Origin: Candidatus Caribbeanibacter nitroreducens
GTDB lineage: Bacteria > Gemmatimonadota > Gemmatimonadetes > Palauibacterales > Palauibacteraceae
Reading direction: 5' to 3'
NCBI GenBank assembly: GCA_947581645.1
Contig: CANPVF010000183.1
Coordinates: 1 to 49,471 of the forward strand
DNA length: 49,471 nucleotides
Shown piece after piece: positions 14,283-31,630 of this stretch. Below the pieces are notes generated by a model that saw only the letters and a program-made list of their open reading frames with translations, searched no databases and had not been told where the DNA came from. The position numbers were made by a program, and so were the translations under genes. Each line of letters begins with the position of its first letter. Position 1 is the first letter of the stretch.

Positions 14283-15668
14283 TCACCCTCCGTACAGCAT
14301 CCCGTACACCACGAGGCCGGTGATCGACACGTAGAGCCACACCGGATACGTCCAGCGGGCAACCCTCCGGTGCCCGCGCCTCCTGCCCTTCAGCGCCCGG
14401 TACAGGGTGAAGGCCACCGCCGGCACCACGGCCGCGGCCAGGAAGGCGTGGGAGGCCAGGACGGCATGATAGATCGTCTCCGACCACCCGGTGCCCGGGT
14501 AGGAGACGGAGCCCACCCGGAAGTGGTAGACCACGTAGGAGGCCAGGAACGCCCCGGACGACGCCACGGCCGCCCCCATGGCCGCCCGGTGCCGGCGGAG
14601 CGCGCCGCGCTTCACGTACCACAGCCCCATCACCAGCGCCACGGCCGCTGCCGCGTTGAGGCCGGCGTTCAGCGTGGCATGGGGGGGCGCCGTGGAGACC
14701 GTCTCCTCCGCCCAGACCACGGCGCCGGTCAGCGCCTGTCCGGAGGCCGGCCCGTCGGCCACCAGGGCCGCCAGCAGGAGCGGGAGGTAGAGCAGCGAGG
14801 CCCCGAAGAGGCGCCGGGCCCCGTCCTCCCCTCCGCGGAGCGCGAAGCCCGCGGCCCCGCCGAGAAAGATCAGGCCGAGCAGCGCGGCCGCCGCCCCGTA
14901 GACCGGTCCGGCCAGCCCCAGAGGCACCCACAGCGAGAGGCTCACCGGCACCAGGAACGCGGTGTAGGCGACGCTCCGCAGGCGACCGCGCACGCCCCCC
15001 GGATCTCCCACCGGCGGCACCCGGAAGCCGGCCCGGCGGTAGTCGTCCAGGTGGAGGCGGCCCAGGGCCAGGACGTGGGGCACCTGCCACAGGAAGAGCA
15101 CCGCGAAGAGGGCCAGGCCGCCCGATCCCACACGCCCCGTCGCCGCCGTCCAGCCCCCGAGGGCCGGGAGCGCTCCCGAGACGGCCCCGACCGGTGTCGA
15201 CGCGGACGTCTTCTGCTTGAGCGGGGTGTACACGAAGGCGTAGGACGCCGCCGTGGCCAGTCCCAGGGCCGCGGTGAGCCCGTTCACGGCGACTGCCAGG
15301 TAGGCGGCGCCGCCCAGCACCAGCAGCGCGGCGAAGACGGCGGCGTGGGAGGGCTCCATCCTCCCGTCCGGCAGCGGCCGCCCCCGGGTGCGCCGCATCC
15401 GCCCGTCCGCCTCCCGCTCGAGCAGCTGGTTCAGGGCGTTCGTCCCGCCGGCCAGCAGACCGATCCCGAGCAGAGCGTGGAGGAGTCCCATCGCCCCGGC
15501 CGGGGCGAGCCCGCTCCCCGTCAGGTACCCCGCCGCGGCCACGGCCAGCACCAGCAGGGTGATCCTGGGCTTGGTGAGCGCCAGGAGGTCCGCAGCGGCC
15601 GGGAGCTCGGCCGGGGAGAGCCCCGGGGCGCTTCCGTCCATCCGCTCCGACCGCGAGGATCCGCTCAC
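14283..15668 (-). CDS. ctaB: Protoheme IX farnesyltransferase (heme O synthase) fused to a DUF420/CtaM-like domain
   Basis: The protein has 461 aa from the GTG at 15668 behind GAGGGC; an ATG at 15641 is the alternative. Residues about 35-310 are a UbiA-type prenyltransferase (LALTKPRITLLVL, GGTNALNQLLEREADGRM, RTRGRPLPDG, YAFVYTPLKQKTSASTPVGA, LWQVPHVLALGRLHLDDYRRAG), the CtaB pattern. It farnesylates heme b to heme O in the membrane. Residues about 326-461 form a four-helix DUF420 domain with its spaced histidines (RRHRAAM, YHFR, SHAFL, GHRR) and WLYVSITG ending. In Firmicutes this family is CtaM, needed for aa3-type oxidase maturation. No stop or frameshift separates the two parts, so this looks like a genuine fusion. 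No heme A synthase (CtaA) is in the window. Confidence 0.93.
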   Translation of the reverse strand: MSGSSRSERMDGSAPGLSPAELPAAADLLALTKPRITLLVLAVAAAGYLTGSGLAPAGAMGLLHALLGIGLLAGGTNALNQLLEREADGRMRRTRGRPLPDGRMEPSHAAVFAALLVLGGAAYLAVAVNGLTAALGLATAASYAFVYTPLKQKTSASTPVGAVSGALPALGGWTAATGRVGSGGLALFAVLFLWQVPHVLALGRLHLDDYRRAGFRVPPVGDPGGVRGRLRSVAYTAFLVPVSLSLWVPLGLAGPVYGAAAALLGLIFLGGAAGFALRGGEDGARRLFGASLLYLPLLLAALVADGPASGQALTGAVVWAEETVSTAPPHATLNAGLNAAAAVALVMGLWYVKRGALRRHRAAMGAAVASSGAFLASYVVYHFRVGSVSYPGTGWSETIYHAVLASHAFLAAAVVPAVAFTLYRALKGRRRGHRRVARWTYPVWLYVSITGLVVYGMLYGG

Positions 15669-15679
15669 CGCTCGAGCCC

Positions 15680-15988
15680 TCAGAACTCCGTCATGACGGC
15701 GAACACCAGGATCGGCGCCAGCGCCAGCGGAGCCGCGGCGATGAGCACCAGTCGCCCGGGCTCGAAGCGGAGGTGCATGAAGTAGAGGGCCACCAGCAGG
15801 GCCTTCCAGACGGCCAGCCCCAGCAGCGACAGCACGATCACCTCGCGGGGGAGGTTCACGAACGCCACCCCCACCTCGATGAGCGTGAGCACGGCCAGCC
15901 CGGCCCACACCGCCATGTAGTTGGGATGGTGCCGCCCCCCGTCGTCCTGCCCGTGGGTGTCGACCCCGGTCTCGTCGCTCTCGGTCAT
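15680..15988 (-). CDS. ctaF: Cytochrome c oxidase subunit IV
   Basis: The protein has 102 aa. A hydrophilic His-rich start (MTESDETGVDTHGQDDGG) is followed by three TM helices with the COX4_pro pattern (YMAVWAGLAVLTLIEVGVAF, REVIVLSLLGLAVWKALLVA, YFMHLRFEPGRL). The small subunit stabilises the CuB/heme a3 core in bacterial aa3 oxidases. It lies between subunit III and heme O synthase, the standard order. The symbol follows Bacillus usage. Confidence 0.9.
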   Translation of the reverse strand: MTESDETGVDTHGQDDGGRHHPNYMAVWAGLAVLTLIEVGVAFVNLPREVIVLSLLGLAVWKALLVALYFMHLRFEPGRLVLIAAAPLALAPILVFAVMTEF

Positions 15989-16028: not shown

Positions 16029-16628
16029 TCAGATCAGATAGACGATGGTGAACAGGATGATCCACACGAGGTCGACGAAGTGCCAGTACAGCCCCAGCAC
16101 CTCGATCGACCGGTAGCTGCCGTCCGAGTACCCGCCCATGTAGGCCTTCACCGTGGTGAACCCCACGCAGAGCACCCCCAGGAAGACGTGGAAGCCGTGA
16201 AAGCCCGTCATGGTGAAGAAGGTGGAGCCGTACAGGCCCGTGCTCGGCAGGAAGCCGTGGCCGATCAGCTCCGCGTACTCGTAGACCTGGATCCCCAGGA
16301 AGACGCTCCCCATGACGAAGGTGGCCAGCAGCCACATCCAGGTGCCGCGATGGTCTCCCCCCTCAGCCGCGGCGAAGGCCTTCACCATGCTCACGCTGCT
16401 GCAGATCAGGATGAAGGTATTGACCGCGGTGATGGGAACGGCCAGGACCTCCCCGGGCAGCGGCCACGTGCCGGACGCTCCGAAGCGGAGGATCACGTAG
16501 GCGCCGATGAGCCCGGTGAAGAACATCACCTCCGAGCCCAGGAACACCCACATGCCCACCTTGGAGTCGTACGCGCCGACCCCGGTCTCCTGCGCGTCCG
16601 CCGTCATCGTCGCTGCCTGTGCTCCCAT
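16029..16628 (-). CDS. ctaE: Cytochrome c oxidase subunit III
   Basis: The protein has 199 aa with five TM helices, typical of short bacterial COX3. Diagnostic segments are KVGMWVFLGSEVMFFTGLI, ICSSVSMVKAFAA, MWLLATFVMGSVFLGIQVYEY, FFTMTGFHGFHVFLGVL and LYWHFVDLVWIILFTIVYL. It lies 83 nt after subunit I and 40 nt before subunit IV. Subunit III supports oxygen delivery and stability of subunit I. Confidence 0.95.
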   Translation of the reverse strand: MGAQAATMTADAQETGVGAYDSKVGMWVFLGSEVMFFTGLIGAYVILRFGASGTWPLPGEVLAVPITAVNTFILICSSVSMVKAFAAAEGGDHRGTWMWLLATFVMGSVFLGIQVYEYAELIGHGFLPSTGLYGSTFFTMTGFHGFHVFLGVLCVGFTTVKAYMGGYSDGSYRSIEVLGLYWHFVDLVWIILFTIVYLI

Positions 16629-16711: not shown

Positions 16712-18520
16712 CTAGCCGGCTCCGGCCGGCGCCACGTCCGTCGATCCGGCGCCCTCCGGCTCCCCCTCGTACGGGGTGACGACCTCGGGGCGCTCGTTCT
16801 GCGCCAGCCAGTCCTTGTCGCTCACCTCGGGGTGGCTGTACTCGTACGCTCCGTGGTAGACCGTGGGCAGGGTGACCCAGTTGCCGTGCTTCGCCGGCGA
16901 GGGCGTCTGCCACTCCAGCGTGTTGGCGTTCCACGGATTCGCCTCGGCCTCCTCGCCCCAGAGCATCCCGTAGATGAAGTTCCCGGCGAAGATCAGCCCC
17001 ACCAGGAAGAGCCCGAGCGCGCTCCACGAGATGAACTCGTTCAGCCCCTGCATGTCCTGCAGGTACTGGTAATTGCTGGCGTCGTAGATCCGGCGCATCA
17101 TCCCCCCGAGCCCCACCTCGTGCATGGGCAGGAACGCCAGGTTGAAGAACACGAAGGTGAGGGCGAAGTGGATCTTCCCCACGGTCTCGCTCATCATCCG
17201 CCCGAACATCTTCGGGAACCAGTAGTAGATCCCCGCGAAGATGGCGAAGAGGCTGCCCCCGAAGAGGACGTAGTGGATGTGGGCGACGATGTAGTAGGTG
17301 TCGTGGATGTAGACGTCCACCGGTGTCGAGGCCATGTAGATGCCCGACAGGCCGCCGATGACGAAGAGCATCACGAAGCCGATGCCGAACAGGTTGGACG
17401 TCCGGAGCTGGATGTTCCCCCGCCACATGGTGCCCATCCAGTTGAACGTCTTGATGGCCGACGGGACCGCGATGACCAGCGTGGAGATCATGAAGCTGGT
17501 GCCCAGCGTCGGGTTCATCCCGCTCTGGAACATGTGGTGCCCCCAGACGATGAAGCCCAGGAACGAGATGGCCACCATGGCGAAGACCATGGACTTGTAG
17601 CCGAAGATGGGCTTCCGGGAGCCGTTGGCGATCACCTCGGAGGCGATGCCCATGGCCGGGAGGATCAGGATGTAGACCTCCGGGTGCCCGAAGAACCAGA
17701 AGAGGTGCTGCCAGAGCAGCGGCTGCCCGCCGCCGGACTGGAGGAAGAACTGGGTCCCCAGCGTCTGGTCGAAGAGCAGCATGATCACGGCGCCGGAGAG
17801 GATCGGCAGGGCCAGCAGGGCCAGGATCGCCGTGATGAACAGCGACCACACCGAGAGCGGGAGACGGAACCAGGTCATCCCCTCCGCCCGGTTGTTGATC
17901 ACCGTGGTGATGTAGTTCACCGATCCGGCGATGGACGACAGCCCCAGCACCACCAGGCTCACGCACCACAGCTGCTGACCCAGGGAGACGCCGGTGTACT
18001 CCGGGTTCGCCGACAGCGGTGCGTAGGAGGTCCATCCGGCCCCCGCGGCACCGCCCTCCACCAGGAAGCCGGCGAGCATGATCAGCCCCGCCGCGAAGGC
18101 CAGCCAGAAGGAGGCCATGTTCAGCCGCGGGAACGCCATGTCCCGGGCCCCGATCTGCAGGGGGATCAGGAAGTTCGCGAACACCCCCACCAGCAGCGGC
18201 ATGATGGCGAAGAACACCATGAACGTACCGTGCATGGTGACCAGGGAGTTGTAGAACTCCGGGAGCATGATGCCGCTCGGGGCCATGGCCTCCGGGAACA
18301 GTCCCCCGATCAGGGGAATCGGCTCGCCGGGGGCGGCGATCTGCCACCGGATCAGCAACGCCAGCAGGCCGCCGAACAGCAGGAACAGCAGGCTGGTGAT
18401 CAGGAACTGTACGCCGATCACCTTGTGATCGGTGGAGAAGACGTACTTCCGCAGGAACGACTGCTCGTGCTCCACGTCGGTGACCGGAGTGCCGGCCGCC
18501 TCGGTCGTCACCGTCGCCAT
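16712..18520 (-). CDS. ctaD: Cytochrome c oxidase subunit I, A1-type heme-copper oxidase
   Basis: The protein has 602 aa. It carries 12 core TM helices with the heme a / a3-CuB ligands in WFFGHPEVYILILPAMGI, WGHHMF and YIVAHIHYVLFGGSLFA. The GHPEV motif with Glu is the A1-subfamily D-channel signature, and the adjoining Tyr supplies the cross-linked His-Tyr. The first helix region is STDHKVIGVQFLITS. The C-terminus ends in a hydrophilic tail (PEVVTPYEGEPEGAG). It reduces O2 to water with proton pumping, using electrons from the CuA site of subunit II. The gene sits directly between subunits II and III. Confidence 0.97.
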   Translation of the reverse strand: MATVTTEAAGTPVTDVEHEQSFLRKYVFSTDHKVIGVQFLITSLLFLLFGGLLALLIRWQIAAPGEPIPLIGGLFPEAMAPSGIMLPEFYNSLVTMHGTFMVFFAIMPLLVGVFANFLIPLQIGARDMAFPRLNMASFWLAFAAGLIMLAGFLVEGGAAGAGWTSYAPLSANPEYTGVSLGQQLWCVSLVVLGLSSIAGSVNYITTVINNRAEGMTWFRLPLSVWSLFITAILALLALPILSGAVIMLLFDQTLGTQFFLQSGGGQPLLWQHLFWFFGHPEVYILILPAMGIASEVIANGSRKPIFGYKSMVFAMVAISFLGFIVWGHHMFQSGMNPTLGTSFMISTLVIAVPSAIKTFNWMGTMWRGNIQLRTSNLFGIGFVMLFVIGGLSGIYMASTPVDVYIHDTYYIVAHIHYVLFGGSLFAIFAGIYYWFPKMFGRMMSETVGKIHFALTFVFFNLAFLPMHEVGLGGMMRRIYDASNYQYLQDMQGLNEFISWSALGLFLVGLIFAGNFIYGMLWGEEAEANPWNANTLEWQTPSPAKHGNWVTLPTVYHGAYEYSHPEVSDKDWLAQNERPEVVTPYEGEPEGAGSTDVAPAGAG

Positions 18521-18554: not shown

Positions 18555-19331
18555 TCACTGATGCTCTCCGCTTCCCTCGCCCCCGGACTCCGCCGTGCCG
18601 TAGTCGTCGGGCAGGCCGGAGACGGTCTCGGGCGTGTTCGGCGGGGTCTCGGTCCAGAACGAGGAGTCCGCTTCCGCCGCGGCCTCCTTCGCCCGGGTCT
18701 GGTACCAGGTGCTGAAGCTGTCCGCCGGCAGGACCGCCACGCTGGCCGACATCCGGTAGTGCCCCAGTCCGCACAGCTCGGCGCAGGCCAGCTGGAAGTC
18801 GCCGGTCTCCGCCGCCTCGAACCACGTCCGCGTGGTCATCCCGGGCACCGCGTCCTGCTTCACCCGCATGAAGGGGAGGAAGAAGGAGTGGATGACGTCC
18901 TCGGTATGGAGCTTCACCGAGACGGCGCGGTCCACCGGTATCCGCACGTCGTTGCGGAGGGTGAAGTCGTCGGCGGTGCCGAGCTCGCTGTCGGCCCCCG
19001 GGTAGGTGATCATCCACTCGAACTGACGGGCGGTGACGCCCAGCTCGAAGGCGTCGTCGGGCGCCGAGTCTCCCTTGATCTCGGACCAGATCCCCCCGCT
19101 GTGGATCCCCAGCCAGACCATGGCGATGGCGGGGATCGCGGTCCAGATGATCTCGGCCGTGTTGTTCCCGTGGACGTAGTCGGCCTCGCGGTTCCGGTAC
19201 CGGAACATGAACCACAGAATGCCCGCCTCCACCAGGACGAAGGCGATGGCCGTGAGGACGAGGATGATGTAGTACGTCTCGTCGATGGCCATCCGCCCGG
19301 CGGCCAGGTTCGGCGGCAGCGTCCAGTCCAT
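18555..19331 (-). CDS. ctaC: Cytochrome c oxidase subunit II (CuA)
   Basis: The protein has 258 aa. Two TM helices (YYIILVLTAIAFVLVEAGIL and IIWTAIPAIAMVWLGIHSG) are followed by a cupredoxin domain. The complete CuA site is present: His in EDVIHSFFLP and CAELCGLGHYRM with both Cys, the second His and Met. No cytochrome c domain is fused, so electrons must arrive from a separate cytochrome c or cupredoxin. Several are encoded immediately upstream. It is 34 nt before subunit I. Confidence 0.96.
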   Translation of the reverse strand: MDWTLPPNLAAGRMAIDETYYIILVLTAIAFVLVEAGILWFMFRYRNREADYVHGNNTAEIIWTAIPAIAMVWLGIHSGGIWSEIKGDSAPDDAFELGVTARQFEWMITYPGADSELGTADDFTLRNDVRIPVDRAVSVKLHTEDVIHSFFLPFMRVKQDAVPGMTTRTWFEAAETGDFQLACAELCGLGHYRMSASVAVLPADSFSTWYQTRAKEAAAEADSSFWTETPPNTPETVSGLPDDYGTAESGGEGSGEHQ

Positions 19332-19429: not shown

Positions 19430-20326
19430 TCACCGGTTGCCGACCTCGGCGTCGGCCGGCGCGGCGTGGCTCTCCTCGCCGTGGTCGTGCGGGTAGATCG
19501 GGTCGCCCAGCGGCACCTCGGCACCCGCCATGTCGGCGCTGTACGTGAAGCTCACCGAGGCGGTGTCGCCGGCGGCCAGGGTCACGGTGTCCGACATCAC
19601 CCCGTAGCGCTCGTGCCAGGCCTCGATCACGTACTCGCCGGGCGGCAGACCGTCCATGGCCACCGACCCGTCCTGTCCCGAGACGTCGTAGAAGGGGTGG
19701 GGGAGCACGCCGATGTAGGCGTTCATCCACCCGTGGACGTCGCAGGCCACCGGGATCATGACCTCCTCCACGGCGAACTTGCGCGTGGTGGTCATCCCGG
19801 CCTGCGGCTGGCTGACGTTGAAGCCGCGGTTCGCCGAGGGCGTGGCGTTGATGTTGTGCAGGACCGAGTCGCTGTTCATGATCGCCAGCGGCTGACCCGC
19901 CTGTACGCCCATCACGTGCGGCCGGTAGCGGCAGGCCTGCTGGTCCAGCGTCTCGGCCTCCTGCGGCGTCGGGAAGCTCCGCTCCAGCCCGCTGCTCACG
20001 TAGACGAAGACGTTCTGGAGCATGCCGTCGTTCACGACCACGTGCTGGGTCCGGGGCTCCGGAGCCTCGTACCGGGCCGCGCAGAACTGCTCCTGCGACA
20101 TGTCGATGCTCTCGGCCTCCGGGGCGGTCCCCTCGAACTGGACCGCGCCCCGGACGAAGGCCTGGGAGTCCGGCGGGACCACCGGTCCCTGCTGCTGGGC
20201 CGCCTGCTGGCCCTCGCCTCCCTCCTGGCCCGCCTGGTCGCCGCCGCCTCCGCACGCGACGAAGGCCGCGGCCGTCACGGCCGCCACGGCCGTCGGAATC
20301 CATCCGCGCAGATCGGTCGTTCTCAT
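19430..20326 (-). CDS. Plastocyanin-like (cupredoxin) lipoprotein with C-terminal carboxypeptidase-regulatory-like domain
   Basis: The protein has 298 aa; AGGAGGAGAAAAGCG precedes the ATG. A lipoprotein signal ends FVACGGGG (Cys25) and a Gln/Gly/Pro linker follows. Residues about 60-230 form a cupredoxin-type domain with candidate copper ligands His in DSVLHNINAT and Cys, His, Met in ACDVHGWM. The segment GSVAMDGLPPGEYVIEAWHE is a carboxypeptidase-D-regulatory/FN3-like motif. It is the first gene upstream of subunit II after the cytochromes. This makes it a candidate periplasmic electron carrier between the c-type cytochromes and CuA, or a copper donor. Confidence 0.82.
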   Translation of the reverse strand: MRTTDLRGWIPTAVAAVTAAAFVACGGGGDQAGQEGGEGQQAAQQQGPVVPPDSQAFVRGAVQFEGTAPEAESIDMSQEQFCAARYEAPEPRTQHVVVNDGMLQNVFVYVSSGLERSFPTPQEAETLDQQACRYRPHVMGVQAGQPLAIMNSDSVLHNINATPSANRGFNVSQPQAGMTTTRKFAVEEVMIPVACDVHGWMNAYIGVLPHPFYDVSGQDGSVAMDGLPPGEYVIEAWHERYGVMSDTVTLAAGDTASVSFTYSADMAGAEVPLGDPIYPHDHGEESHAAPADAEVGNR

Positions 20327-20429
20327 CGCTTTTCTCCTCCTGAAGTGCGCTGGCTCGATGCTCCGTGCTCGGTGATCGTCGCTTCCGTTCTCGCGCCGGC
20401 CGCCGCGCCCCGTCGCGCCCCGGCCGGCC

Positions 20430-22076
20430 TCACGCCCCGCTCCCGTCGTCTCCGGCGCCGCCCCCCGTCTCCCCCTGCCGGGCGCTCCGCACCATGAAGA
20501 CGCCGAAGCCGGCAACCAGGAGAACCACCGCCGCCGGGGCCACGTAGACCTCGTTCCCGGTGGGCACCTCCAGGACGACGAAGTACCAGCTGCTCACGGC
20601 CGCCCGCTTCCCCGTCTCGGCGTTGTTCCCGTCCCACGCGTAGAAGGCCACCGGGACGGCCACCCCCGACTCCAGGGAAATGCGCTGTCCCTCCCCCTCG
20701 AGGGAGCGGCGGAAGACGACGCTCCACTGTCCCGCCGACCAGGTGGCCTGGCCCTGCAGCCGGCTCTCCGGCAGCGGACCGGCCGTGCCCAGGCCGGTGG
20801 CGGTGGACTCGCGGATCCCGTCCCGGCTGTTCCAGCGCCACAGGTAGACCGGCTTCTGGGCCGATCCCATGAGGAAGTAGGGACGCTCGCGGCCCTCGGG
20901 GATCTCCGTCGGGAACTGCACCGCCAGCCGGTCCGGCAGCGAGTCGGTGGGCCACGGCGTGCCGTCGGCGTACAGGGCGCCGGCCACCCGACGCTGCCAC
21001 TGCATCCAGGCCGAGTCGGGACTCTGCGACGGGTCGTTCCACGACACGCGGAGGGCGATCTCGCTCCCGTCGTGGACGCCCTCGACCCAGACCCCGTCCA
21101 CCATGGGCTCGAACTGCCGCGGCCGCTCGAGCACCTGTCCGGCCATGGGGAACCAGTAGCGATCGACGTCGTCCCACGCGTCGGCCCCGGGCCCCGCCGG
21201 CAGCTCTTCGTCGTCCGCGATCCGCTCCACGCGGACCACGTTCCGCCCCGGGGGCGGCACGCGCTCCGGCGCCAGGCTGCGGACGTAGTAGGCCAGGTCC
21301 CACAGCTGGGCCGAGTCCACCACCCCGGCGTTCAGGGCGTCCGCCTGCGTGGGCATGGGCGTGCCGTCGAGCCCCGTGAGGAAGCGCCGGTGGATCTCCT
21401 CCACGGAGCTTCCCCCGTTGAACAGCCACGGCTGCGTCAGGTCGGCGGCGCGGACGGGCTGATCCCGCCAGTCGGTGAGCGTCGGCGCCGAGGGCCCGTC
21501 GCCGCGCCCCGCGCTCCCGTGGCACCGGTCGCACTCGAGCTTCGTGTAGACCTGTCGGCCGCTCTCCAGCGCCTCCTCGCCGCCCCCCGGCGGACTCTCG
21601 AAGGAGAGGGAGTCCGGCGGGCCGAGCCGCTCGAAGAAGGGGGAGAGCGACTTGAGATACGCCGTCAGGTCGCGCTGCTGCGAACGGTTCAGGTTCGGCC
21701 AGCCGGGCATGGTGGTGCCGGGAAGGCCGTGCTCGATGGCACGCATGATGTCGCCGGTGGTCGGCAGGTTGCCGCTGGCCGTGGTCCGGATCTGGTACCG
21801 GGCCTCGGTGAAGTCCCGGGGGCGGGGCAGCATCCGCGAGGCCGCCGGGCCGTCGCCCTCGCCCTCGGCGCCGTGGCACTCGGCGCACCACCGCTCGTAC
21901 AGCCGCTGGCCGTTCTCCACGTCCTGGGCGTCGGCGGCGGACGGGAGCGCCAGCCCGGCGATCAGCAGGAGCGGCATCAGCGACAGGAACGACGTCCACC
22001 CGGGGCCGTTCCCGTGCGCGCCCGCGTTCCATCTTCCTGCCCCCCGATGCCGTGCCACCCGGCGCGTGCCCCTCAC
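20430..22076 (-). CDS. Di-heme cytochrome c fused to an ethylbenzene-dehydrogenase-type heme-binding domain
   Basis: The protein has 548 aa; the GTG at 22076, behind GGAGGGG, overlaps the previous stop by 4 nt. After a signal sequence (FLSLMPLLLIAGLALPSAADA) there are two cytochrome c domains with heme sites CAECHG (about residue 65) and CDRCHG (about residue 185), each with a downstream Met. Residues about 285-480 match the EB_dh/DMSO-reductase gamma-type domain (EIALRVSWNDP, DRLAVQFPTEIP, YLWRWNSRDG, WSVVFRRSL). A C-terminal TM (VYVAPAAVVLLVAGFGVFMV) follows. EB_dh domains bind heme b, so three hemes are possible. No molybdenum dehydrogenase is nearby, so ethylbenzene oxidation is not implied; membrane-bound electron transfer is likely. 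Confidence 0.87.
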   Translation of the reverse strand: MRGTRRVARHRGAGRWNAGAHGNGPGWTSFLSLMPLLLIAGLALPSAADAQDVENGQRLYERWCAECHGAEGEGDGPAASRMLPRPRDFTEARYQIRTTASGNLPTTGDIMRAIEHGLPGTTMPGWPNLNRSQQRDLTAYLKSLSPFFERLGPPDSLSFESPPGGGEEALESGRQVYTKLECDRCHGSAGRGDGPSAPTLTDWRDQPVRAADLTQPWLFNGGSSVEEIHRRFLTGLDGTPMPTQADALNAGVVDSAQLWDLAYYVRSLAPERVPPPGRNVVRVERIADDEELPAGPGADAWDDVDRYWFPMAGQVLERPRQFEPMVDGVWVEGVHDGSEIALRVSWNDPSQSPDSAWMQWQRRVAGALYADGTPWPTDSLPDRLAVQFPTEIPEGRERPYFLMGSAQKPVYLWRWNSRDGIRESTATGLGTAGPLPESRLQGQATWSAGQWSVVFRRSLEGEGQRISLESGVAVPVAFYAWDGNNAETGKRAAVSSWYFVVLEVPTGNEVYVAPAAVVLLVAGFGVFMVRSARQGETGGGAGDDGSGA

Positions 22077-22918
22077 GACGTCCCCTCCGCGGCGGATCCC
22101 GAGCTCCCGGCCTCGCCCCCGCCGTGGCCCTCCGTGGATCGCGGCGTGAAGCCGGTCTGCTCGTACAGGTAGACGATCACCGACCAGATCTCCCGCTGAC
22201 TCAGCACGCCCTCCCACGCGGGCATGGCCGAGTTCCACGGCGTTCCCTCCGGCGGGAGCCCCGGCCCGCCCTTGGCGATGCGCCAGAAGACGAAGCTCTC
22301 GGACAGCTGCGGGAGGTTCCCGCCCGAGGTCAGGTCCAGCGGCGCCGGATTGAAGGCGTTGGCGAAGTGGCCCTGGCCGTCCAGCCGGTCGCCGTGGCAC
22401 GGGACGCAGTTCTCGGCGTAGATCTCCGCTCCCCGCTCGTAGTGCTCCTGCAGGTCTCCCTCCTCCCGGAGCGGGTTCTGGAGCCGCGAGAGACGGAGCG
22501 TCTCCCCCTCGAACTGGATCTGGTCCGGCGGCGCCGGGTGGATCGATCGGAGGGCCGCCGGCGCGCCGTAGCTGGGGCGGACGTTGGTGTAGGTGAGCCA
22601 GCCCGTGATCGCCATGGCGGCCACCAGCACCGCCACCCGGAGCCAGCCCAGGTCCGGTTCCACCAGCAGGACCCGGATCGGCTCCCTGAACCGCTCCCAC
22701 CGCTCCTCGTTCGCGCTCACGTAGAGCATGAGCGCCAGGAAGACCGAGAGCATGTACTGGAGCACGACGGAGCTCGGCACCGGCGCGCTGGCCACGCCGA
22801 ACAGGGGCGGCACGTGGGGAATGCCGAACCGGATCGCCGCGTAGGCCAGGACCAGGACCAGCGCCGTGGCCCAGAAGGGATGACCGACCCACTCCCGCAC
22901 CCGCTCCGGGCCGCTCAT
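22073..22918 (-). CDS. Membrane-anchored mono-heme cytochrome c
   Basis: The protein has 281 aa. Three hydrophobic segments come first (FWATALVLVLAYAAIRFGI, VLQYMLSVFLALMLYVSA, LRVAVLVAAMAITGWLTYT). A periplasmic class I cytochrome c domain follows at about residues 155-255, with heme site CVPCHGDRLDG and likely axial Met in WNSAMPAWEG. The tail is Gly/Ser-rich. It overlaps the next cytochrome gene by 4 nt, so the two products are probably partners. The multi-TM anchor is unusual for a mono-heme cytochrome and suggests embedding in a membrane complex. Confidence 0.85.
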   Translation of the reverse strand: MSGPERVREWVGHPFWATALVLVLAYAAIRFGIPHVPPLFGVASAPVPSSVVLQYMLSVFLALMLYVSANEERWERFREPIRVLLVEPDLGWLRVAVLVAAMAITGWLTYTNVRPSYGAPAALRSIHPAPPDQIQFEGETLRLSRLQNPLREEGDLQEHYERGAEIYAENCVPCHGDRLDGQGHFANAFNPAPLDLTSGGNLPQLSESFVFWRIAKGGPGLPPEGTPWNSAMPAWEGVLSQREIWSVIVYLYEQTGFTPRSTEGHGGGEAGSSGSAAEGTS

Positions 22919-22949
22919 CGGAGCACCTCCCGCCGCCGGATGCCGTCGC

Positions 22950-23786
22950 TCACGAGCCCTCGCCCCCCTCGCCGGAGAGCCAGTCCACGAAGGCCTGGAG
23001 CTCGGCGTCGCTCAGCCGCTGGTCGAAGTTGCCGAGCATGGTGCCCGCGAACTGGCTGTAGTCCTTCTCGTAGCCGCTGGCCGTGTCGGCGTTGGGCTGG
23101 AGGATCGAGCGGCGGACGTACTCCGCCGAGAGCCCCTTCTCCTGGATGGCCTCGAAGGGCGGCGCGGTCACGCCGCCGGTGCCGCCGAGCTGGTGGCAGG
23201 CCAGGCACCCGTACTTCTTGGCCAGGGCGCCCGGCTCCGAGCCGGCTCCCCCTGCCCCGCCGGCCGCGGCCTGGCCGCCGCCCGCCGACGGCCCCGATCC
23301 TCCGCCGGCGGCGGGGCCTCCCGTCCCGCTCCCGGCCGAGGCCAGGTCCTCCGAGGAGACCGTCACCTCGCCCCCCTGGCTCTGGAGGAAGGCCACCAGC
23401 GCCCAGATCTGGCCCGGGCTCAGCTGGGCCTCCATGGAGGGCATGATGGGCTGGAATCCCTCCACCACGAAGTCTCGAGGCTGGACCAGCGAGCGGTGCA
23501 GGTATTCCTTGCAGCTCAGCTCCGGCTGCCGCTCGCCGCACCGGGCGCCGATCTCCCCCATCAGTGTCGGGGCCCGGGTGCCGAGGCCGTGGCACGCCTG
23601 GCAGCCGCCGGCGCCCTGGTAGATCTTCTCCCCCATGCTCACCAGCTGCTGGGTGGAGGTGTTGGGCCCCACCTCCACCCGCTCCGGGACCTGCGACTCC
23701 ACCTGCGGGATGACGTTCGAGATCCCGGTGTACACCCCCAGCGTGAGCAGCACCGTCCCGACGATCTTCGCGTTCGTCTTCCACAT
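22950..23786 (-). CDS. Di-heme cytochrome c with N-terminal anchor
   Basis: The protein has 278 aa and starts 1 nt after the CydA-like gene. N-terminal signal/anchor MWKTNAKIVGTVLLTLGVYT. Two cytochrome c domains follow: CQACHGLG (about residue 62), with PIMPSME as probable Met ligand, and CLACHQLGG (about residue 195), with TMLGNFDQRL. A Gly/Ala/Ser-rich flexible linker joins them. Its immediate coupling to the CydA-like gene makes it the best candidate for that protein's electron donor. Confidence 0.88.
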   Translation of the reverse strand: MWKTNAKIVGTVLLTLGVYTGISNVIPQVESQVPERVEVGPNTSTQQLVSMGEKIYQGAGGCQACHGLGTRAPTLMGEIGARCGERQPELSCKEYLHRSLVQPRDFVVEGFQPIMPSMEAQLSPGQIWALVAFLQSQGGEVTVSSEDLASAGSGTGGPAAGGGSGPSAGGGQAAAGGAGGAGSEPGALAKKYGCLACHQLGGTGGVTAPPFEAIQEKGLSAEYVRRSILQPNADTASGYEKDYSQFAGTMLGNFDQRLSDAELQAFVDWLSGEGGEGS

Positions 23787-23787
23787 C

Positions 23788-25659
23788 TCAGGCCACCTGC
23801 TCTTCGGCTGACTCCAGGCGGGGCCCCTCCTCGCCGACGTCGGCGCCCGGACCGCCGCCCGCGCCCTCCTCCCCGACGGCCTTCGCTCCGCCCCCGCCGG
23901 AGCCCTCCTCGGCCAGCGTGCCGAGCCAGAAGATCAGGCCCACGAGGGCGAAGAAGATCAGCACGCAGACGCTGATCATGATCGCGGCGTGGCCCAGGGC
24001 CGGGGTGGCCGCCTGGCTGCTGGTGTCCCGCACCGTCTGGTAGACGTGCCAGTGCTGGCGGATGCCGCTCCGCGCGAAGCCCATGAGGCCCATGAGCCAG
24101 GTGAAGGTCACCGCCAGGATGAAGAGGGCGTACTGCGAGCGCTCGGGCATCTTGCCCCACCGTATGCTCCCGCGGCTCTCGGCGCCGCGCATCATGGCCA
24201 CGTCGAGCCCCACCACGAAGACCATGGCGGCCAGGACCGAGAGCACCTGGTAGACGCTGAACCCGATGCGCACCTCGGCGGTGACGAAGTAGCCGTACAC
24301 GCCATAGAAGAGCACCACCCCCGCGGCCACCGCCACGGCCGCAGCCTGCACCCAGGTGCCGGCCTTCGCCCAGTCCACCTTCGGCACCTTGTTGGCCCGG
24401 CGGTAGAGCATGAACGAGATGAAGGTGGCCAGGATCATGAAGTTCACGGCCGTGTTCTTGGCGCTCATCACCCCCAGGACGTTCAGGAAGGGGTGGTGGC
24501 TCCCGCCCATGGCCGCCAGCTCCTGGCGGCTGGCGATCATGGTGTGCGGCGTGGCCCACACCACGAACCCGAGGACCAGCACCGCCAGCAGGTACTTCGT
24601 GTACTTCTGGAAGCGCTCGGCTCCCGGGATCCGGTCCATGCCGGTCCACAGGTAGTAGTTGCCGGCCAGGAAGAGGACCCCGATGAGGAAGGCCTGGATG
24701 ATCCACAGCCAGCTCATGAAGCCGCCCATCATCGTGATCCCCATGGCCTGGTCGTAGGCGTAGATCTCCCGCCCCAGCCAGTAGCCGGCGAAGGGGAGGA
24801 CCAGGAGGGCGGCGATGGCGATGAAGTTCCCCACGTAGCCCATCCAGTCGTAGTGGGCCCGCTCCTCGTCGGAGTCGGCCGCCAGGAAGCGGTAGGCGGC
24901 ATAGGCCCCGACGATGGCCCCGCCGAACACCACGTTGGCGATGAGCCGGTGGATGTTGATGGGCATCCACGTGAAGTTCATCACGGCGTTCCACAGCTCG
25001 ATGCTGGCCGGATCCGTCTGCGCCGTCACCCCCGACGGCGGGCTCATCATGTAGCTGAGCCACGAGTCGGCGATGAAGAGGACCAGGGTGCCCCAGACGT
25101 TGAGCAGGACGCCGAGCCCCAGGTGGAGCTTCTTCTTCGCCCCCTCCTTCATGTGGTTCCAGCCGTAGTAGTAGACGTACAGGGTGAAGGACTCGAAGAA
25201 GAAGAGCCCGGCGTACGCCCACATGGTCGGCGCGAAGACCTCGGTGAGGTGCCGCCAGAAGGTGGGGTAGAGGGTGGAGAGGAAGAAGACCAGCACCGCC
25301 CCCCAGATGGCGGTGGCGCTGTAGGCCACCAGCAGGAGGCGGGTGAACTCCTTGGAGAGCCGGTCGTAGCGCTTCTCCCCGGTCCACATCCCGATGCCCT
25401 CCACGACCACCGCGAACATCGGGACGCCCAGCACGAAGGCGGCGAACATCAGGTGCAGCTGCGCGGCGATCCACACCGCGCCGCGCGGACCCACCACCGG
25501 GAAGTCGCCGTAGACCTGCTCCGTCTGCTGGGCCAGCCCCGGCTCGACCAGGGCCAGGACGGCCAGCAGGGCCGCCGCGGCGGCGCCGGACCAGCGCACG
25601 GCCCGTGACGACCCGGAGCCGGACCGCCCGACCCCGTCCGCCGCGCCGGTCTCACTCAT
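23788..25659 (-). CDS. CydA-like (cytochrome bd superfamily) oxidase subunit I, no CydB
   Basis: The protein has 623 aa. The ATG at 25659 overlaps the radical SAM stop by 8 nt. The fold matches CydA: QLHLMFAAFVLGVP (His69, equivalent to the b595 His), MWAYAGLFFFESFTLYVYYYGW (conserved Glu) and INIHRLIANVVFGG (His237, equivalent to the b558 His). The canonical E-x-GRQPW motif is replaced by RSGIRQHW (residues 530-537), so the Glu that ligates heme b595 in E. coli aligns with Ser531. No CydB gene is in the operon. C-type cytochromes follow instead. Phylogenetic work describes CydA families outside the quinol oxidases, including ones from Nitrospira-like bacteria, and this may belong to one. It could oxidise cytochrome c or quinol. 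Confidence 0.85.
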   Translation of the reverse strand: MSETGAADGVGRSGSGSSRAVRWSGAAAAALLAVLALVEPGLAQQTEQVYGDFPVVGPRGAVWIAAQLHLMFAAFVLGVPMFAVVVEGIGMWTGEKRYDRLSKEFTRLLLVAYSATAIWGAVLVFFLSTLYPTFWRHLTEVFAPTMWAYAGLFFFESFTLYVYYYGWNHMKEGAKKKLHLGLGVLLNVWGTLVLFIADSWLSYMMSPPSGVTAQTDPASIELWNAVMNFTWMPINIHRLIANVVFGGAIVGAYAAYRFLAADSDEERAHYDWMGYVGNFIAIAALLVLPFAGYWLGREIYAYDQAMGITMMGGFMSWLWIIQAFLIGVLFLAGNYYLWTGMDRIPGAERFQKYTKYLLAVLVLGFVVWATPHTMIASRQELAAMGGSHHPFLNVLGVMSAKNTAVNFMILATFISFMLYRRANKVPKVDWAKAGTWVQAAAVAVAAGVVLFYGVYGYFVTAEVRIGFSVYQVLSVLAAMVFVVGLDVAMMRGAESRGSIRWGKMPERSQYALFILAVTFTWLMGLMGFARSGIRQHWHVYQTVRDTSSQAATPALGHAAIMISVCVLIFFALVGLIFWLGTLAEEGSGGGGAKAVGEEGAGGGPGADVGEEGPRLESAEEQVA

Positions 25660-27106
25660 CGCCGTCCCCCTCCCCGCCGCGGGCGAAGAAGGGCATGCGC
25701 TCCGAGAAGTCGATGGGCATCTCCTTCCGCACGCGGGTCATGAGCTCGGCCGTGACCCGGCTCTCCCCCTTCCGGCGGGCGTAGTCCTCCAGGCGGTTGG
25801 CCACCACACCGCGGACGAAGGAGGGCACCCGCTCGAGCCGCTCCTCGGCGTCCTCCGTCCACGGCATCTCCCGGTCCGCCGACTCGCCGTAGGTGATCTC
25901 CCGCGGCGGCTGGATGGCCTCCTCCCGCCCGTCCGGCTCGTACGCACAGGACTCGTCGGGGCCCATCGGATCGCCGGTCTCGGCGTGGGCCCGGGCGCGA
26001 CATCCGCCGCACAGCTCCCGGTAGGCGCAGCGCCCGCACTTCCCGCCGAGGCTCTCCTCCCGCAGCCGCCGGAAGAGCTCCGATCCCCGCCACACCTCGC
26101 CGAAGCTCGCCTCCCTGAGGTCGCCGGCCACCTCCGGCATGTACGGGCACGGGGTCACCTTGCCCTCCGGCGTGATGCGGCAGTACTGGACGCCGCACGG
26201 ACAGCGGGTCCGGTAGTTGAGCAGCGGGGAGTCGGGGTCGCGCTCGTGGACGTGGCGCATGAGCTGCGGCTGGCACTTGGAGCGGATCATCAGCCGCCCC
26301 CGGTACTCCCGCTGCAGCTCGGCCAGCTCCGCCAGGACCTCCTCGTTCTGCTCCGGCGACAGGCCGGTCAGCCGTCCGTCGCTGGCCATGCCCTCGCCCC
26401 GGCCCGTGCCCACCAGGAAGTACAGGTTGAAGCACACGGCCCCCTTCTCCGCCGCCCACGCCACCAGCTCCGGGACCTCCTCCCGGTTGGCCCGGGTGAG
26501 GGTGGTCTGGACCACGAAGTCCAGCCGTCCCTCCCGCAGGCGCTCCACGGCCGCGAGCGTCTGCTCCAGGGCGCCGGCCCCGCGCCGGAACCGGTCGTGA
26601 TAGTCCGGGTCCAGGGAGTCGACGCTGATCGCCACCCCGCGCACGCCGGCGTCCTTGAGCGAGGCGATCCGGTCCCGGGTCAGGAGCGTCCCGTTGGTGC
26701 CCACCACCACGGTGGCGCCCTGCCCGGACGCGTAGGCGGCGATCTCCTCCAGGTCGTCCCGGACCAGGGGCTCGCCGCCGGAGAGCACGAACAGGGGCGC
26801 CGGGTTCACGTCCAGCACCTGGTCGGTGATCCGCCGGCACTCCTCGGTGGAGAGGTCGTCGCCGTCGGAGCGCCAGGAACCGGCCGAGATGTAGCAGTGG
26901 GGGCACTCCAGGTTGCAGCGCGCCGTGAGGTTCCAGGCCACCACGTGCGGCAGGTCGCGGTCCGAGTCCTCCGCGGCCTCCGCGGCCGTCGCCCCGGCCG
27001 TCTCGGCGCCGGCGCCCGGCTCCCACGCGTCGCGGTAGGCGGACGGAAAGCCGTCCCCCTCCCCGAGGTCCGCGCCGGCGTCTCTGCTGGCCCCCGTCTC
27101 GCTCAC
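25652..27106 (-). CDS. Radical SAM/SPASM enzyme (NirJ/AhbD-like) with C-terminal PCP_red-like domain
   Basis: The protein has 484 aa; the GTG at 27106 overlaps the stress-protein stop (GTGA). An acidic N-terminus of about 50 residues is followed by the radical SAM core with CNLECPHC (Cys64, 68, 71), LSGGEPLVRDDL and a TNGTLLT strand. A SPASM region holds auxiliary-cluster cysteines (RCPCGVQYC, TPCPYMPE, KCGRCAYRELCGGC). This layout resembles heme-biosynthesis enzymes NirJ, AhbC and AhbD, and also peptide-modifying SPASM enzymes. Residues about 415-465 (PWTEDAEERLERVPSFVRGV and following) match the PCP_red domain seen at the C-terminus of BchB/ChlB. Heme or tetrapyrrole chemistry is an attractive inference; a peptide substrate is the alternative, but no small precursor gene was seen. 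Confidence 0.87.
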   Translation of the reverse strand: MSETGASRDAGADLGEGDGFPSAYRDAWEPGAGAETAGATAAEAAEDSDRDLPHVVAWNLTARCNLECPHCYISAGSWRSDGDDLSTEECRRITDQVLDVNPAPLFVLSGGEPLVRDDLEEIAAYASGQGATVVVGTNGTLLTRDRIASLKDAGVRGVAISVDSLDPDYHDRFRRGAGALEQTLAAVERLREGRLDFVVQTTLTRANREEVPELVAWAAEKGAVCFNLYFLVGTGRGEGMASDGRLTGLSPEQNEEVLAELAELQREYRGRLMIRSKCQPQLMRHVHERDPDSPLLNYRTRCPCGVQYCRITPEGKVTPCPYMPEVAGDLREASFGEVWRGSELFRRLREESLGGKCGRCAYRELCGGCRARAHAETGDPMGPDESCAYEPDGREEAIQPPREITYGESADREMPWTEDAEERLERVPSFVRGVVANRLEDYARRKGESRVTAELMTRVRKEMPIDFSERMPFFARGGEGDGDE

Positions 27107-29268
27107 CCCGACCCGCCTTCCCTCTCGCCGTCTCCGTCCTCGCCGCCGTCGCCCTCCGCCTCCATGTAGGCTTCGATGGCCTCCTCCGCCTGATCCGGGG
27201 TGGCCATGTCGAAGTCCACCGGGCAGTCGTCCTCGTCCCGGGCCTCCTCGGCCACGTCCCGGATCGGACACTTCTCGACGCCGCTCTCCTTGGCCTCCTC
27301 GATGAACTTCTTCATCTCCGGGCTCAGGCCCTCGGCCCCGGCGGCCTCCGCCCGGGCCTGCTTGGCCTTCATGTTCTCGAACATCACGAGCATGGTGTCG
27401 ACGTCGAACGTGTCGGCGTCGATCATGGCCTGCTTGTTCTCGTCCATGAGGTCGGTGGTCACCCGCCAGTCGCCCCGCTCCCGGGCGAACTTCTCCACCG
27501 TGTTCCGGGCCAGCGGGCGGGGGATCAGCGGCACCTGCTTCAGCCGCTCGAAGGCCTCGTGTGTCCACACCACCGGGTCGGACTCGGTGCGCTCCCGCTC
27601 CTGCTCGTGGCCGGTGTACGGGCACTCCTCCACCACCGCGGGCGGCTCCGGGTCCTCCTCGTCCTCGTGTCCGTGGACCACCGTCCGCTCCATGGCCTCC
27701 TCGGCCTTCACCTCGGCACGGGCGATCTCCTCGGCGTCGCCGATCCCCATGACCATCTGCATGTGGGTGGGGAGCAGCTTCTCGATGGCCTCGTCCAGCC
27801 GCTCGTTGGTCACCACCGGCAGCTCCTCGCGGGTGAGCTGCGGCGCCTCGCCGTCGCCGTTCGCCGAGCCGGGCCCCGGGGCCTTCTGGGCGCCCGTCCC
27901 GTTGCCCCCGTTCTCGCCCGGCTTCCAGTCGTCGACGAAGGCGGCGGCGAACTCGGACCCGGGGCCGTAGTGCTCCAGGACGTACTCCTCCACGGCGTCC
28001 CGTGCGATGCCGATGGCGAAGGGGGGAACGCGCTGGATGCGGACCTCCGCGTCGGGCGCCCACTCCAGTCCCTTCTTCCCGTCCTCCTCGATCCAGGGCA
28101 CGTCCTCCGGGTTCACGTCCTCCGTGCCGGTGAGCATGACGCTGCACGGGGCCATGCGGAGCAGGTTGTCGGCGTTGGAGCCCAGGTCGGGGCCGTCGAT
28201 GCGGTGGGAGCCGTGACGGGCCAGGAAGAGCATGGAGGGCTCCACCTCGTCCGCCCACTGGAGGATGGACTGGAAGGGCTTCCCGATCAGGACCTGGGTC
28301 TCCAGCGGGACGTCCGGGTACTCCTCCGCCATCTTTTTGGCCCGCTTGATGTTGGCCTGTGATAGACGGAGCAGCCCCTTGTCGATGACGTTGTTATGGA
28401 GCTCCTCCTGCTCCTCGAACTTGAAGACCTTCGAGGCCTGGGCGGAGAGGACGTCCTTGATGTTGTTGAAGACGGCGTGGTGGTACTGGACGTCGAAGGA
28501 ACTGCACACGTAGAGCTTGGCTCCGAACTCCTCCGCCATCTCCAGGGCCATCTTCATCGCCCGGTAGCTGTAGGCCGAGCCGTCGACGCAGACCATCCAC
28601 TCGCCGTTCTCCAGCGGCGAGTCCTCCCGTACCAGGAGCATGTCCTTGTCGACGCCCCTGGCCACGCGGGAGACGACGCCGCCCAGCTGCGAGCGGGGCT
28701 GCCGGCCGATGCCGTGGGCGCCGATGACGAGCAGGTCGTAGTCGCGACCCGAGCTGCCGGCGAGCTTCTCCTCCTGCTCCTCGTCCTCGGCGACGATGTT
28801 GCCCTCGTCGTCGACCTCGACGTCGCCCCGGACGTCGTCGCCGCCGTCGTACTTGTCGGCGATGTTCCGGTCGAAGCCGATGAGGCTGGGGAGCTGGCCG
28901 GCGCCCCGGTTCGTCTCCTTGACGATCTCCTCGTAGTTGATCCCCTCGAGGAGCTGGCGGGTCATGGAGACGTCCCGCTCGCGGCAGCGCTCCGCCACCT
29001 CGTTCAGGAAGCTGTCGGAGATGAGCTGGAGGCCCTTCTCGATCAGCTTGTCGTGGACCTTCCGCTGGCGGCGGATCTCCTCGGGATCCTGGAAGCGGGC
29101 AGGGAGCCCGACCTCGAGCTGGCGGAAGCGGACGTCGTGGAGCCGGGCCGCGTAGACGTGGCTCGCGGTCAGGTGACCGTCGAAGCGGTCGGCGATCTCG
29201 ATGGCCCGGTCGACGGCCCAGTCGGAGTGCTGAGAATTGTCGACGGGGACCAGGAGCTCGCGGTACAT
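27103..29268 (-). CDS. Double universal stress protein with two PCP_red-like domains
   Basis: The protein has 721 aa from the ATG at 29268; a GTG six bases upstream is possible. USP domain 1 covers residues 1-215 (MYRELLVPVDNSQHSDWAVD, VIGAHGIGRQPRSQLGGVVS) with an acidic insert at about 140-172. USP domain 2 covers 223-382 (VCVDGSAYSYRAMKMAL, ARHGSHRIDGPDLGSNADNL). Then comes a PCP_red-like segment split by a linker (401-436 WAPDAEVRIQRVPPFAIGIA and 483-500), and a clearer copy at about 568-617 (WTHEAFERLKQVPLIPRPLA). The C-terminal 100 residues are very acidic with Cys in EKCPIRDV and DDCPVDF. It is the first gene of the oxidase operon. It may sense nucleotide or redox state, or act as a scaffold. 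Confidence 0.85.
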   Translation of the reverse strand: MYRELLVPVDNSQHSDWAVDRAIEIADRFDGHLTASHVYAARLHDVRFRQLEVGLPARFQDPEEIRRQRKVHDKLIEKGLQLISDSFLNEVAERCRERDVSMTRQLLEGINYEEIVKETNRGAGQLPSLIGFDRNIADKYDGGDDVRGDVEVDDEGNIVAEDEEQEEKLAGSSGRDYDLLVIGAHGIGRQPRSQLGGVVSRVARGVDKDMLLVREDSPLENGEWMVCVDGSAYSYRAMKMALEMAEEFGAKLYVCSSFDVQYHHAVFNNIKDVLSAQASKVFKFEEQEELHNNVIDKGLLRLSQANIKRAKKMAEEYPDVPLETQVLIGKPFQSILQWADEVEPSMLFLARHGSHRIDGPDLGSNADNLLRMAPCSVMLTGTEDVNPEDVPWIEEDGKKGLEWAPDAEVRIQRVPPFAIGIARDAVEEYVLEHYGPGSEFAAAFVDDWKPGENGGNGTGAQKAPGPGSANGDGEAPQLTREELPVVTNERLDEAIEKLLPTHMQMVMGIGDAEEIARAEVKAEEAMERTVVHGHEDEEDPEPPAVVEECPYTGHEQERERTESDPVVWTHEAFERLKQVPLIPRPLARNTVEKFARERGDWRVTTDLMDENKQAMIDADTFDVDTMLVMFENMKAKQARAEAAGAEGLSPEMKKFIEEAKESGVEKCPIRDVAEEARDEDDCPVDFDMATPDQAEEAIEAYMEAEGDGGEDGDGEREGGSG

Positions 29269-29670
29269 CGGCACCTCGAAGCCTCGGTGAACGCAGCGCC
29301 ATCGCTGTCGGCCCTGAGGAAACGGCGATGCCGCCGGTCCGTCCGCCTCGAGTCACTGCACAGGCCACCGGGGTGGGCTCTCTCGACTCTCAACGGCCGC
29401 ACTGCGACCGCCGCGCCGTCCCGGCACGTTCGAGCCTCGAGGCGCCCTCGGCGCCTTCCGACCCCGCCTGTCACCGGCTGGATCTCGTGAACTCGCGGAC
29501 GCCTCGTGGCAGTCCGCCGTTCCTCGGCTTCTCGGTGCCTCCGGAGCTCCCGTCAGGGAGAATCCGTGAGGCAGGAAAAATGGATCCGTGACCCGGATCC
29601 ATTCCTGTTTCGAATATTGTCTGTAATTATCCGACGTCCAGATCGTATATAGCTGCCCCTGCTGGTCACG
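29269..29670. other. Inter-operon region, no gene
   Basis: This stretch of 402 nt separates two minus-strand operons. Positions 29270-29570 are GC-rich with no convincing frame. Positions 29572-29670 are AT-rich and hold the hairpin and the promoter described separately. The leader between the promoter and the first gene would be about 370 nt long. Confidence 0.6.
29576..29603 (-). terminator. Intrinsic terminator or attenuator hairpin
   Basis: AATGGATCCG (579-588) pairs perfectly with CGGATCCATT (594-603) around a 5-nt loop. Read on the minus strand the stem is followed by further T residues (five T at 576-580, two of them in the stem). CAGGA/TCCTG adds outer pairing. It can terminate the upstream ABC-transporter operon. 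Because a strong promoter lies just before it, it could also attenuate the downstream oxidase operon. Confidence 0.75.
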
Positions 29671-30432: not shown

Positions 30433-31382
30433 GGGCTCTCCCGGCGGAGGGGCTCGCCCGCCAGCGCCAGGAACGCGTCGTCCAGGTCCGGGCTCCGGAC
30501 CCGGACGCCGGCGATCTCCGCGCCCGCCTCCAGGAGGCGGGCCGAGAGGTCCGGCAGGGAGGCGCCGCCGTCCCGGGCGCTGAACCGGAGGCGTCCGCCG
30601 TCCCGGGCCGCGAGTCGGACCCCCTCCGGCCACTCCCGCCCCTCCGCCACGCCGTCTTCCGCCGGACCCACGAGCTCCACCTCGATGGTGGCCGAGCCCT
30701 CCACGGCGCCGATCAGCTCCTCCGGGCTCCCCAGCGCCGCGAGCTCCCCGGCGCGGAGGAACGCGACCCGATCGCAGACGTCCTCCATGAACGCCGCGCC
30801 GTGGCCCGTGACCACAGTGGCACCGCCGGCGCGGGCCCGCTCCCGCAGGCTCCCGGCCAGCGTGGAGCGGGCGGCGGCGTCCAGGGCGTCCAGCGGCTCG
30901 TCCAGGAGCAGGAGGTCGCCGGCCGCGGCGAAGGCCAGGGCCAGGTCCGTCTTCCGGCGCATGCCCCGCGAGTAGGTCGCGACGGGATCCCCCGAGCGGT
31001 CGGCGAGGCCGAACCGGCCCAGCCACGTCTCGGCGCGGTCCCGGGCCTCCGGGCCCGGAACGCCGCGGAGCTCGAGCAGGCGCGTCACGTTCTCGCGGCC
31101 CGGGAGGCTGTCGGCGAAGGGGGAGCGGTCGAGGACCGTGGCGGTGCGGCGGAGGGCGCCGCCGGCGCCTCCCCCGAAGCGCTCCACGCGGCCGCCGTCG
31201 GGCTCCAGGGCCCCGGCCAGCACGCGCAGGAGCGTGCTCTTGCCCGATCCGTTGGGCCCCATGACTCCCAGCACCTCGCCGCGGCGGACCACGAGGTCCA
31301 CGTCCCGTAGCGCGGACCGCCCCTCCTCCCAGGCGTGCCGGATCCCCTCGGCGCGGACCGCAGGCTCTTCCCGGGGCGTCAC
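30429..31382 (-). CDS. ABC-2 type transporter ATPase
   Basis: The protein has 317 aa; the GTG at 31382 overlaps the ferredoxin stop. Walker A is GPNGSGKST, the Q-loop lies near ATVLDRSPF, the signature is a variant [16 protein letters not shown], Walker B is LLLLDEP and the H-loop is VVTGHG. About 100 C-terminal residues follow, like the DUF4162 extension of ABC-2 drug/lipid exporters. It forms a two-component exporter with the permease that follows. Coupling to a ferredoxin and a PCP_red protein suggests export of a cofactor or cluster-related compound, but this is speculative. Confidence 0.88.
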
Positions 31383-31630
31383 GGCGCCAGCAGGTTCCCC
31401 TCGTCGTCCCGGGCGGTGATGGCGTCCACCGGACACGAGCGGCACGCCTCGAGCAGCGTCTCACGGTCCACGCTCTCCGGCTCCGTGAACTCGGCCAGGT
31501 CGTCCTCGTTCAGCTCGAAGCACTCCGGCGACGCGTCCACGCAGTCGCCGAATCCCACGCAGAGGTCCAGGTCGACCTTCACCGTGAGCCCGTGGACCTC
31601 GCGCTCGTAGCGGAGGTCGGCGTCGCTCAC
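31379..31630 (-). CDS. Small 3Fe-4S/4Fe-4S single-cluster ferredoxin
   Basis: The protein has 83 aa; the GTG at 31630 overlaps the previous stop by 4 nt. The cluster-binding pattern is [20 protein letters not shown] and CRSCPVDAI, the layout of mono-cluster ferredoxins that serve P450s and other oxidoreductases. It is highly acidic. Its place between a PCP_red protein and an ABC ATPase, upstream of a radical SAM gene, makes it a candidate reductant for that enzyme. Confidence 0.88.

Follow-up and report, generated by a model that had tools for sequence, protein, structure and literature searches.

Organization of the locus

The window, that is, the whole stretch of 49,471 nucleotides analysed here, is one contig of a 2.96-Mb genome that is 95.9% complete. 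It contains a minus-strand run of closely spaced genes that begins at about 29.3 kb (perhaps 32 kb) and ends at about 14.3 kb. The genes between positions 20430 and 25659, with which the original prediction was concerned, are present as described there, but the run is longer than that span. In the order of transcription, it encodes a universal-stress protein (Usp), a radical SAM protein, a CydA-like protein, a diheme cytochrome c, a membrane cytochrome c, a diheme/EB_dh protein, a cupredoxin-like protein, CoxB, CoxA, CoxC, CoxD and heme O synthase/DUF420. The intergenic gaps down to CoxD range from -67 to 98 nt, and the run is presumably read as a single transcript.

The CydA-like core subunit (23788-25659, minus strand, as are all genes of the run) comprises 623 amino acids and matches PF01654; an N-terminal signal/helix precedes its 13 membrane helices. 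The next gene starts 1 nt past its stop codon and encodes a membrane-anchored diheme cytochrome c (22950-23786) with CxxCH motifs at residues 62 and 194 and invariant Met115 and Met250. The two genes that follow also proved to be as claimed: a cytochrome c with about three N-terminal membrane helices (22073-22918; one CxxCH, at residue 171, and invariant Met232), and then a diheme cytochrome c with an EB_dh domain and a C-terminal membrane anchor (20430-21977; start codon uncertain). For each c heme, a conserved Met is a candidate second ligand. The EB_dh domain was considered as a heme b site, but no conserved Met or Lys was found in that domain, and heme b is not claimed for it.

Downstream lies the gene for a putative cupredoxin-like periplasmic protein (19430-20401, with the start near 20401). 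Its identity is suggested by a conserved His, Cys-x2-His and Met (H182, C220, H223 and M226); it has no strong Pfam match. It is followed by CoxB, cytochrome c oxidase subunit II, which has the CuA-type motif CAELCGLGH (18555-19331); CoxA, heme-copper oxidase subunit I (16712-18520); CoxC, subunit III (16029-16628); CoxD, subunit IV (COX4_pro; 15680-15988); and a reading frame that combines DUF420 with a heme O synthase of the UbiA family (14283-15908).

Upstream, the gene for a radical SAM/SPASM protein with a C-terminal PCP_red domain (25652-27169) runs into the start of the CydA-like gene, and is itself preceded by one for a protein with universal-stress-protein repeats and two PCP_red domains (27103-29274). 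Farther upstream are a conserved 4Fe-4S ferredoxin gene (31379-31789) and a frame with a further PCP_red domain, whose start is uncertain (31627-32574). Upstream of the whole run, and likewise on the minus strand, is the gene for a large multicopper oxidase (816 aa; 36794-39244).

Family and fold of the CydA-like core

The CydA-like protein matches PF01654 with 82.1 bits (gathering score 26.2; E 4e-23) over residues 64-305, and in the Protein Data Bank it matches 5doq and 9r2g by sequence. An AlphaFold2 model of moderate confidence (mean pLDDT 70.8, pTM 0.70) has 13 long helices in addition to the N-terminal signal/helix. When compared with ten solved CydA chains in VIA-align, the model gives Z scores of 27.5-30.1 and rmsd values of 4.0-4.7 over 337-353 aligned residues, and the alignment spans residues 46-592. 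Judged by its PF01654 score and by the CydA fold of the model, the core is a member of the cytochrome bd superfamily. The model also aligns with membrane subunits of alternative complex III (6f0k_F, Z 21.8; 6btm_C, Z 19.1) and with polysulfide reductase (2vpw_C, Z 16.1). This likeness to NrfD-type folds may reflect a shared CydA/NrfD ancestry, or merely a common helix arrangement.

Heme-ligand and quinol-site residues

The ligands in E. coli bd-II are His186 and Met393 for heme b558, Glu445 for heme b595 and His19 for heme d (PMC8585947). The residue alignment comprised 102 relatives, some of them from the same genomes and two of them divergent paralogs; 15 canonical CydAs of Gemmatimonadota served for comparison. 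Equivalents of His19, Glu107 and His186 are retained in all 102 relatives. The two N-terminal heme His positions that had been recognized in the window protein are indeed these ligands, His69 corresponding to His19 and His237 to His186. The helix-3 Glu, said to be kept, is retained as regards Glu156 (the equivalent of Glu107), but Glu99 is replaced by an invariant Tyr149. Pairing Glu99 of the E. coli protein with Tyr149 requires a one-residue gap, which corresponds to the Leu101 insertion. Geobacillus CydA does not have this insertion (PMC8585947), and alignment to it places the Tyr opposite the Glu99 equivalent without a gap.

The altered motif RSGIRQHW is found at residues 530-537, and RQ-x-W thus survives in the core. 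The claim that the b595-ligating Glu is replaced also holds, since neither the multiple nor the profile alignment places a Glu at the Glu445 position. In the multiple alignment, this position is Leu in 101 relatives and Met in the remaining one; the profile-profile alignment agrees, and inserts six residues ahead of RQHW. With another placement of these residues, Glu445 pairs with Ser531, again not Glu. Further, the b558 ligand Met393 is replaced by Tyr in 100 of the 102 relatives, and the quinol-site residue Glu257 by Met in every one. Lys252, also of the quinol site, is Met in 97 relatives and Leu in five, and the window protein has Met at both quinol-site positions. None of these three losses had been mentioned in the original prediction. 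All of these residues, Lys252 and Glu257 included, are retained in 15 of 15 canonical CydAs from the same phylum. Because about 100 relatives share these changes without exception or nearly so, they are not the product of chance.

CydB and distribution among the Gemmatimonadota

A search with the CydB profile (PF02322), which detected CydB in ten of the control genomes, found no match anywhere in the 95.9%-complete genome, bearing out the reported absence of this subunit. The CydA-like gene is also the only PF01654 gene of the genome. The wider sample consisted of 298 draft genomes of Gemmatimonadota, in which a few CydB absences may be gaps. The window-type gene is present in 78 of them, which is about half of the 151 genomes having a CydA-type match, and CydB is absent from 61 of these carriers. 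In the other 17, CydB always lies on a contig other than that of the window-type gene, and in at least nine of them it adjoins a separate canonical-type CydA. Strict co-occurrence with a cydB elsewhere, which had been named beforehand as an observation that would speak against the original prediction, was thus not found. Among the best 80 matches of a scan of genome contigs, there were only Gemmatimonadota-type loci, a few of which are titled otherwise but belong to the same family. Viral contigs yielded none, and plasmids yielded only short, weak matches.

A tree (midpoint-rooted, with long branches) places 16 quinol oxidases on one side of a branch with 100/100 support and the CydA-like protein outside them. 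A position inside the canonical quinol oxidases, the second contrary observation named beforehand, was therefore not found either.

Conservation of the cytochrome cassette

The gene order is strictly conserved, as counted over those loci that reach far enough, with some genomes counted twice. The three cytochrome genes lie 3' of the core gene in 89 of 89, 83 of 83 and 77 of 77 loci, respectively. The universal-stress gene is found in 80 of 80 and the radical SAM gene in 87 of 87, the cupredoxin-like gene in 72 of 72 and coxB in 65 of 65; coxA, plus coxC where it is reached, comes next in most of the longer loci. This fixed union of a CydA-like cassette with an aa3 oxidase operon is a new point of the present analysis. 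Two divergent paralog loci, L053 (6775-8685) and L054 (2983-4749), encode proteins about 51% identical to the CydA-like protein and have the core and three cytochrome genes without cox genes. Their genomes (G238 and G274) also have a window-type gene, and both paralogs share the losses of Glu99, Lys252, Glu257, Met393 and Glu445. That the same genes recur without cox genes suggests that the four products, core and three cytochromes, belong together.

The central claim is sustained: the core is a bd-superfamily subunit that lacks CydB and falls outside the canonical quinol oxidases, and c-type cytochrome genes adjoin it in every relative inspected. On the evidence of gene content and conservation, the run is a conserved, non-canonical respiratory operon of the Gemmatimonadota.

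The radical SAM and PCP_red proteins

A second new point is the near one-to-one co-occurrence of the radical SAM/PCP_red gene with the CydA-like gene. The radical SAM protein is found (E below 1e-60) in 80 of the 298 genomes, 76 of which also have a window-type CydA-like gene; two genomes have the latter without the former, and four have the radical SAM protein only. One of these four (G264) has a fragment of a CydA-like gene, and two others are weak matches at 39-46% identity. The tie is judged by these counts, as the Fisher test ignores shared ancestry.

The models nearest to the radical SAM protein are those of NirJ2 and AhbD, with 289 and 287 bits against an NCBIfam equivalog cut-off of 500. 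PCP_red domains are known from protochlorophyllide reductase. Four of them are distributed over three proteins here (25652-27169, 27103-29274 and 31627-32574, all minus), with a ferredoxin nearby, and we found no paper describing four such domains on radical SAM/universal-stress proteins in one stretch. The radical SAM/PCP_red protein is a candidate cofactor maturase, probably of the oxidase system, and together with the ferredoxin the set may mature a tetrapyrrole. A gene of the HemQ type (PF06778; 48924-49469, plus strand) is present at the contig end, by which it is cut. The idea that the radical SAM protein is the genome's heme b synthase was downgraded, as HemQ-type sequence in the genome suggests that heme b can be made without it. 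Because the cox genes travel with the radical SAM set, a maturation role toward the aa3-type oxidase is possible.

Respiratory context of the genome

No match to the cytochrome b of bc1 was found in the genome. Genes for ActC (NrfD), ActD and an ActE-like cytochrome c occur in a row, and electron transfer from quinol to cytochrome c is thus covered. A role for the core as a replacement for complex III was considered, and it was lowered once these genes were found. The genome also has other heme-copper oxidase sequences. A search for CydDC gave no match above the CydD cut-off in the genome, a test that is blurred by many other ABC transporters.

Proposed function

We consider it somewhat probable (about 0.55) that the CydA-like protein forms the catalytic core of a bd-superfamily O2 reductase that has no CydB and is fed by periplasmic c-type cytochromes and not by quinol. 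Electrons from quinol would travel via alternative complex III to c-type carriers, and from these to the three membrane-anchored cytochromes of the adjoining genes, which together have five covalently bound c hemes. They would then reach the hemes of the CydA-like subunit, held by His69 and His237, where O2 would be reduced; Tyr149, Met523, Met526 and His538 are further candidate heme ligands. The same run supplies an aa3-type cytochrome c oxidase as well, so that it would make either a pair of terminal oxidases linked to cytochrome c or a single joint assembly, and the dedicated radical SAM/PCP_red protein would mature a cofactor of the system. The donor, the substrate, the formation of a complex, the heme type and the maturation are all points that we infer. 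Three considerations count against this reading. With Glu99, Met393 and Glu445 gone, the core might bind fewer hemes or be incapable of O2 chemistry; a different quinone site may be compatible with the loss of the known quinol residues; and, with a complete aa3-type oxidase already in the run, the system could strictly do without another site for O2.

A possible, though doubtful, alternative is that the CydA-like subunit transfers electrons without being an oxidase itself: together with its cytochromes, it would hand them on from quinol, or between carriers, to the aa3 oxidase encoded downstream, either in the manner of a complex III or as a supercomplex linker. It would accord with the invariable presence of coxB downstream (65 of 65 loci), the loss of O2-active heme ligands, the resemblance of the core model to membrane subunits of alternative complex III (Z 19-22), and the alternative-complex-III-like role that has been proposed for bd-like proteins of nitrite oxidizers (PMC3578206). 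However, alternative complex III genes are already in the genome, NrfD is found almost throughout the phylum, the residues known to form the quinol site are gone, and the cassette recurs without cox genes.

It is unlikely that the protein is a protective enzyme, fed by cytochrome c, that reduces nitric oxide, peroxide or another small molecule in place of O2. The surroundings of the active site are altered relative to canonical cytochrome bd (Glu99 to Tyr, and Glu445 lost), and a universal-stress-protein gene is in the run, but a terminal oxidase run with heme O synthase better fits respiration, and none of the genes observed next to the CydA-like gene is one for nitric oxide or peroxide. An ordinary quinol oxidase with a CydB too divergent for detection is very improbable: the CydA fold and the RQ-x-W motif are kept, but the conserved run has no CydB-like gene, the quinol-site residues are lost in all relatives, and the tree places the protein outside the quinol oxidases.

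We advance only tentatively a more elaborate reading. The core would contain a modified tetrapyrrole that its dedicated radical SAM/PCP_red protein makes or inserts, with the ferredoxin and the Usp-PCP_red protein helping, and would function together with the co-encoded aa3-type oxidase in a single cytochrome-c-linked assembly. If this is true, the system would be a bd-type oxidase in which both the heme and its maturation route are new.

Relation to known systems

The OR-C and OR-N forms of the bd superfamily are reportedly listed in many phyla by Murali et al. 2021. In papers that cite that study, from which our criteria for these forms were drawn, the superfamily is split into qOR, OR-C and OR-N, and OR-N is proposed to be a user of cytochrome c (PMC10839748, PMC13189123, PMC12342949). 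O2 reduction with cytochrome c by OR-N is proposed and as yet unproven (PMC10839748). The idea of such an enzyme is accordingly less new than the original prediction took it to be, as forms devoid of the quinol site, with cytochrome c as the proposed donor, are already in the literature. The features given for OR-C/OR-N in these papers, a missing quinol site and c-type cytochrome partners encoded alongside, are both found here. Those of a canonical qOR (CydAB), namely CydB, Lys252/Glu257, the ligands Met393/Glu445 and the position in the tree, are not. In type, the protein most likely fits the non-quinol (OR-type) branch.

The core shares with CydA of qOR its fold, His19, Glu107, His186 and RQ-x-W, but it is without CydB, Glu99, Met393, Glu445, Lys252 and Glu257, and has extra helices and c-type cytochrome partners. 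In Nitrospina and Nitrospira, the bd-like proteins are reported to have 14 helices, close to the count found here, and likewise have no quinol-binding residues (PMC3578206). Like these CydAA'-type oxidases, the protein is a CydA relative without a quinol site, with a proposed cytochrome c donor, c-type cytochromes and cupredoxins nearby, about 13-14 helices and retained N-terminal heme ligands. The present run differs in having a single CydA-like gene instead of the proposed CydA/CydA' pair, and in being joined to a complete aa3-type set and a dedicated radical SAM/PCP_red gene. The TO clusters of Ca. Manganitrophaceae are likewise composite, with non-canonical bd-like proteins and periplasmic redox partners; TO_2 has MrpD-like subunits, whereas the cluster described here has an aa3-type oxidase instead (PMC9040806).

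According to a survey of the Gemmatimonadota, 53% of genomes have "cytochrome bd oxidase", which is described there as quinol-oxidising (PMC9426454). Because 78 of the 151 genomes with a CydA-type match have the CydB-less form without the quinol site, energy yields and O2 affinities taken from such annotations may be wrong. Cytochrome-c-linked bd oxidases are a prediction from genomes, for which this run offers a compact, conserved and complete test set, and the near one-to-one tie to the radical SAM protein provides a handle on the cofactor question. In the same survey, fewer than 10% of Gemmatimonadota had alternative complex III (PMC9426454); it may have been missed through KEGG annotation. 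NrfD-type proteins are present in 296 of the 298 genomes in our sample.
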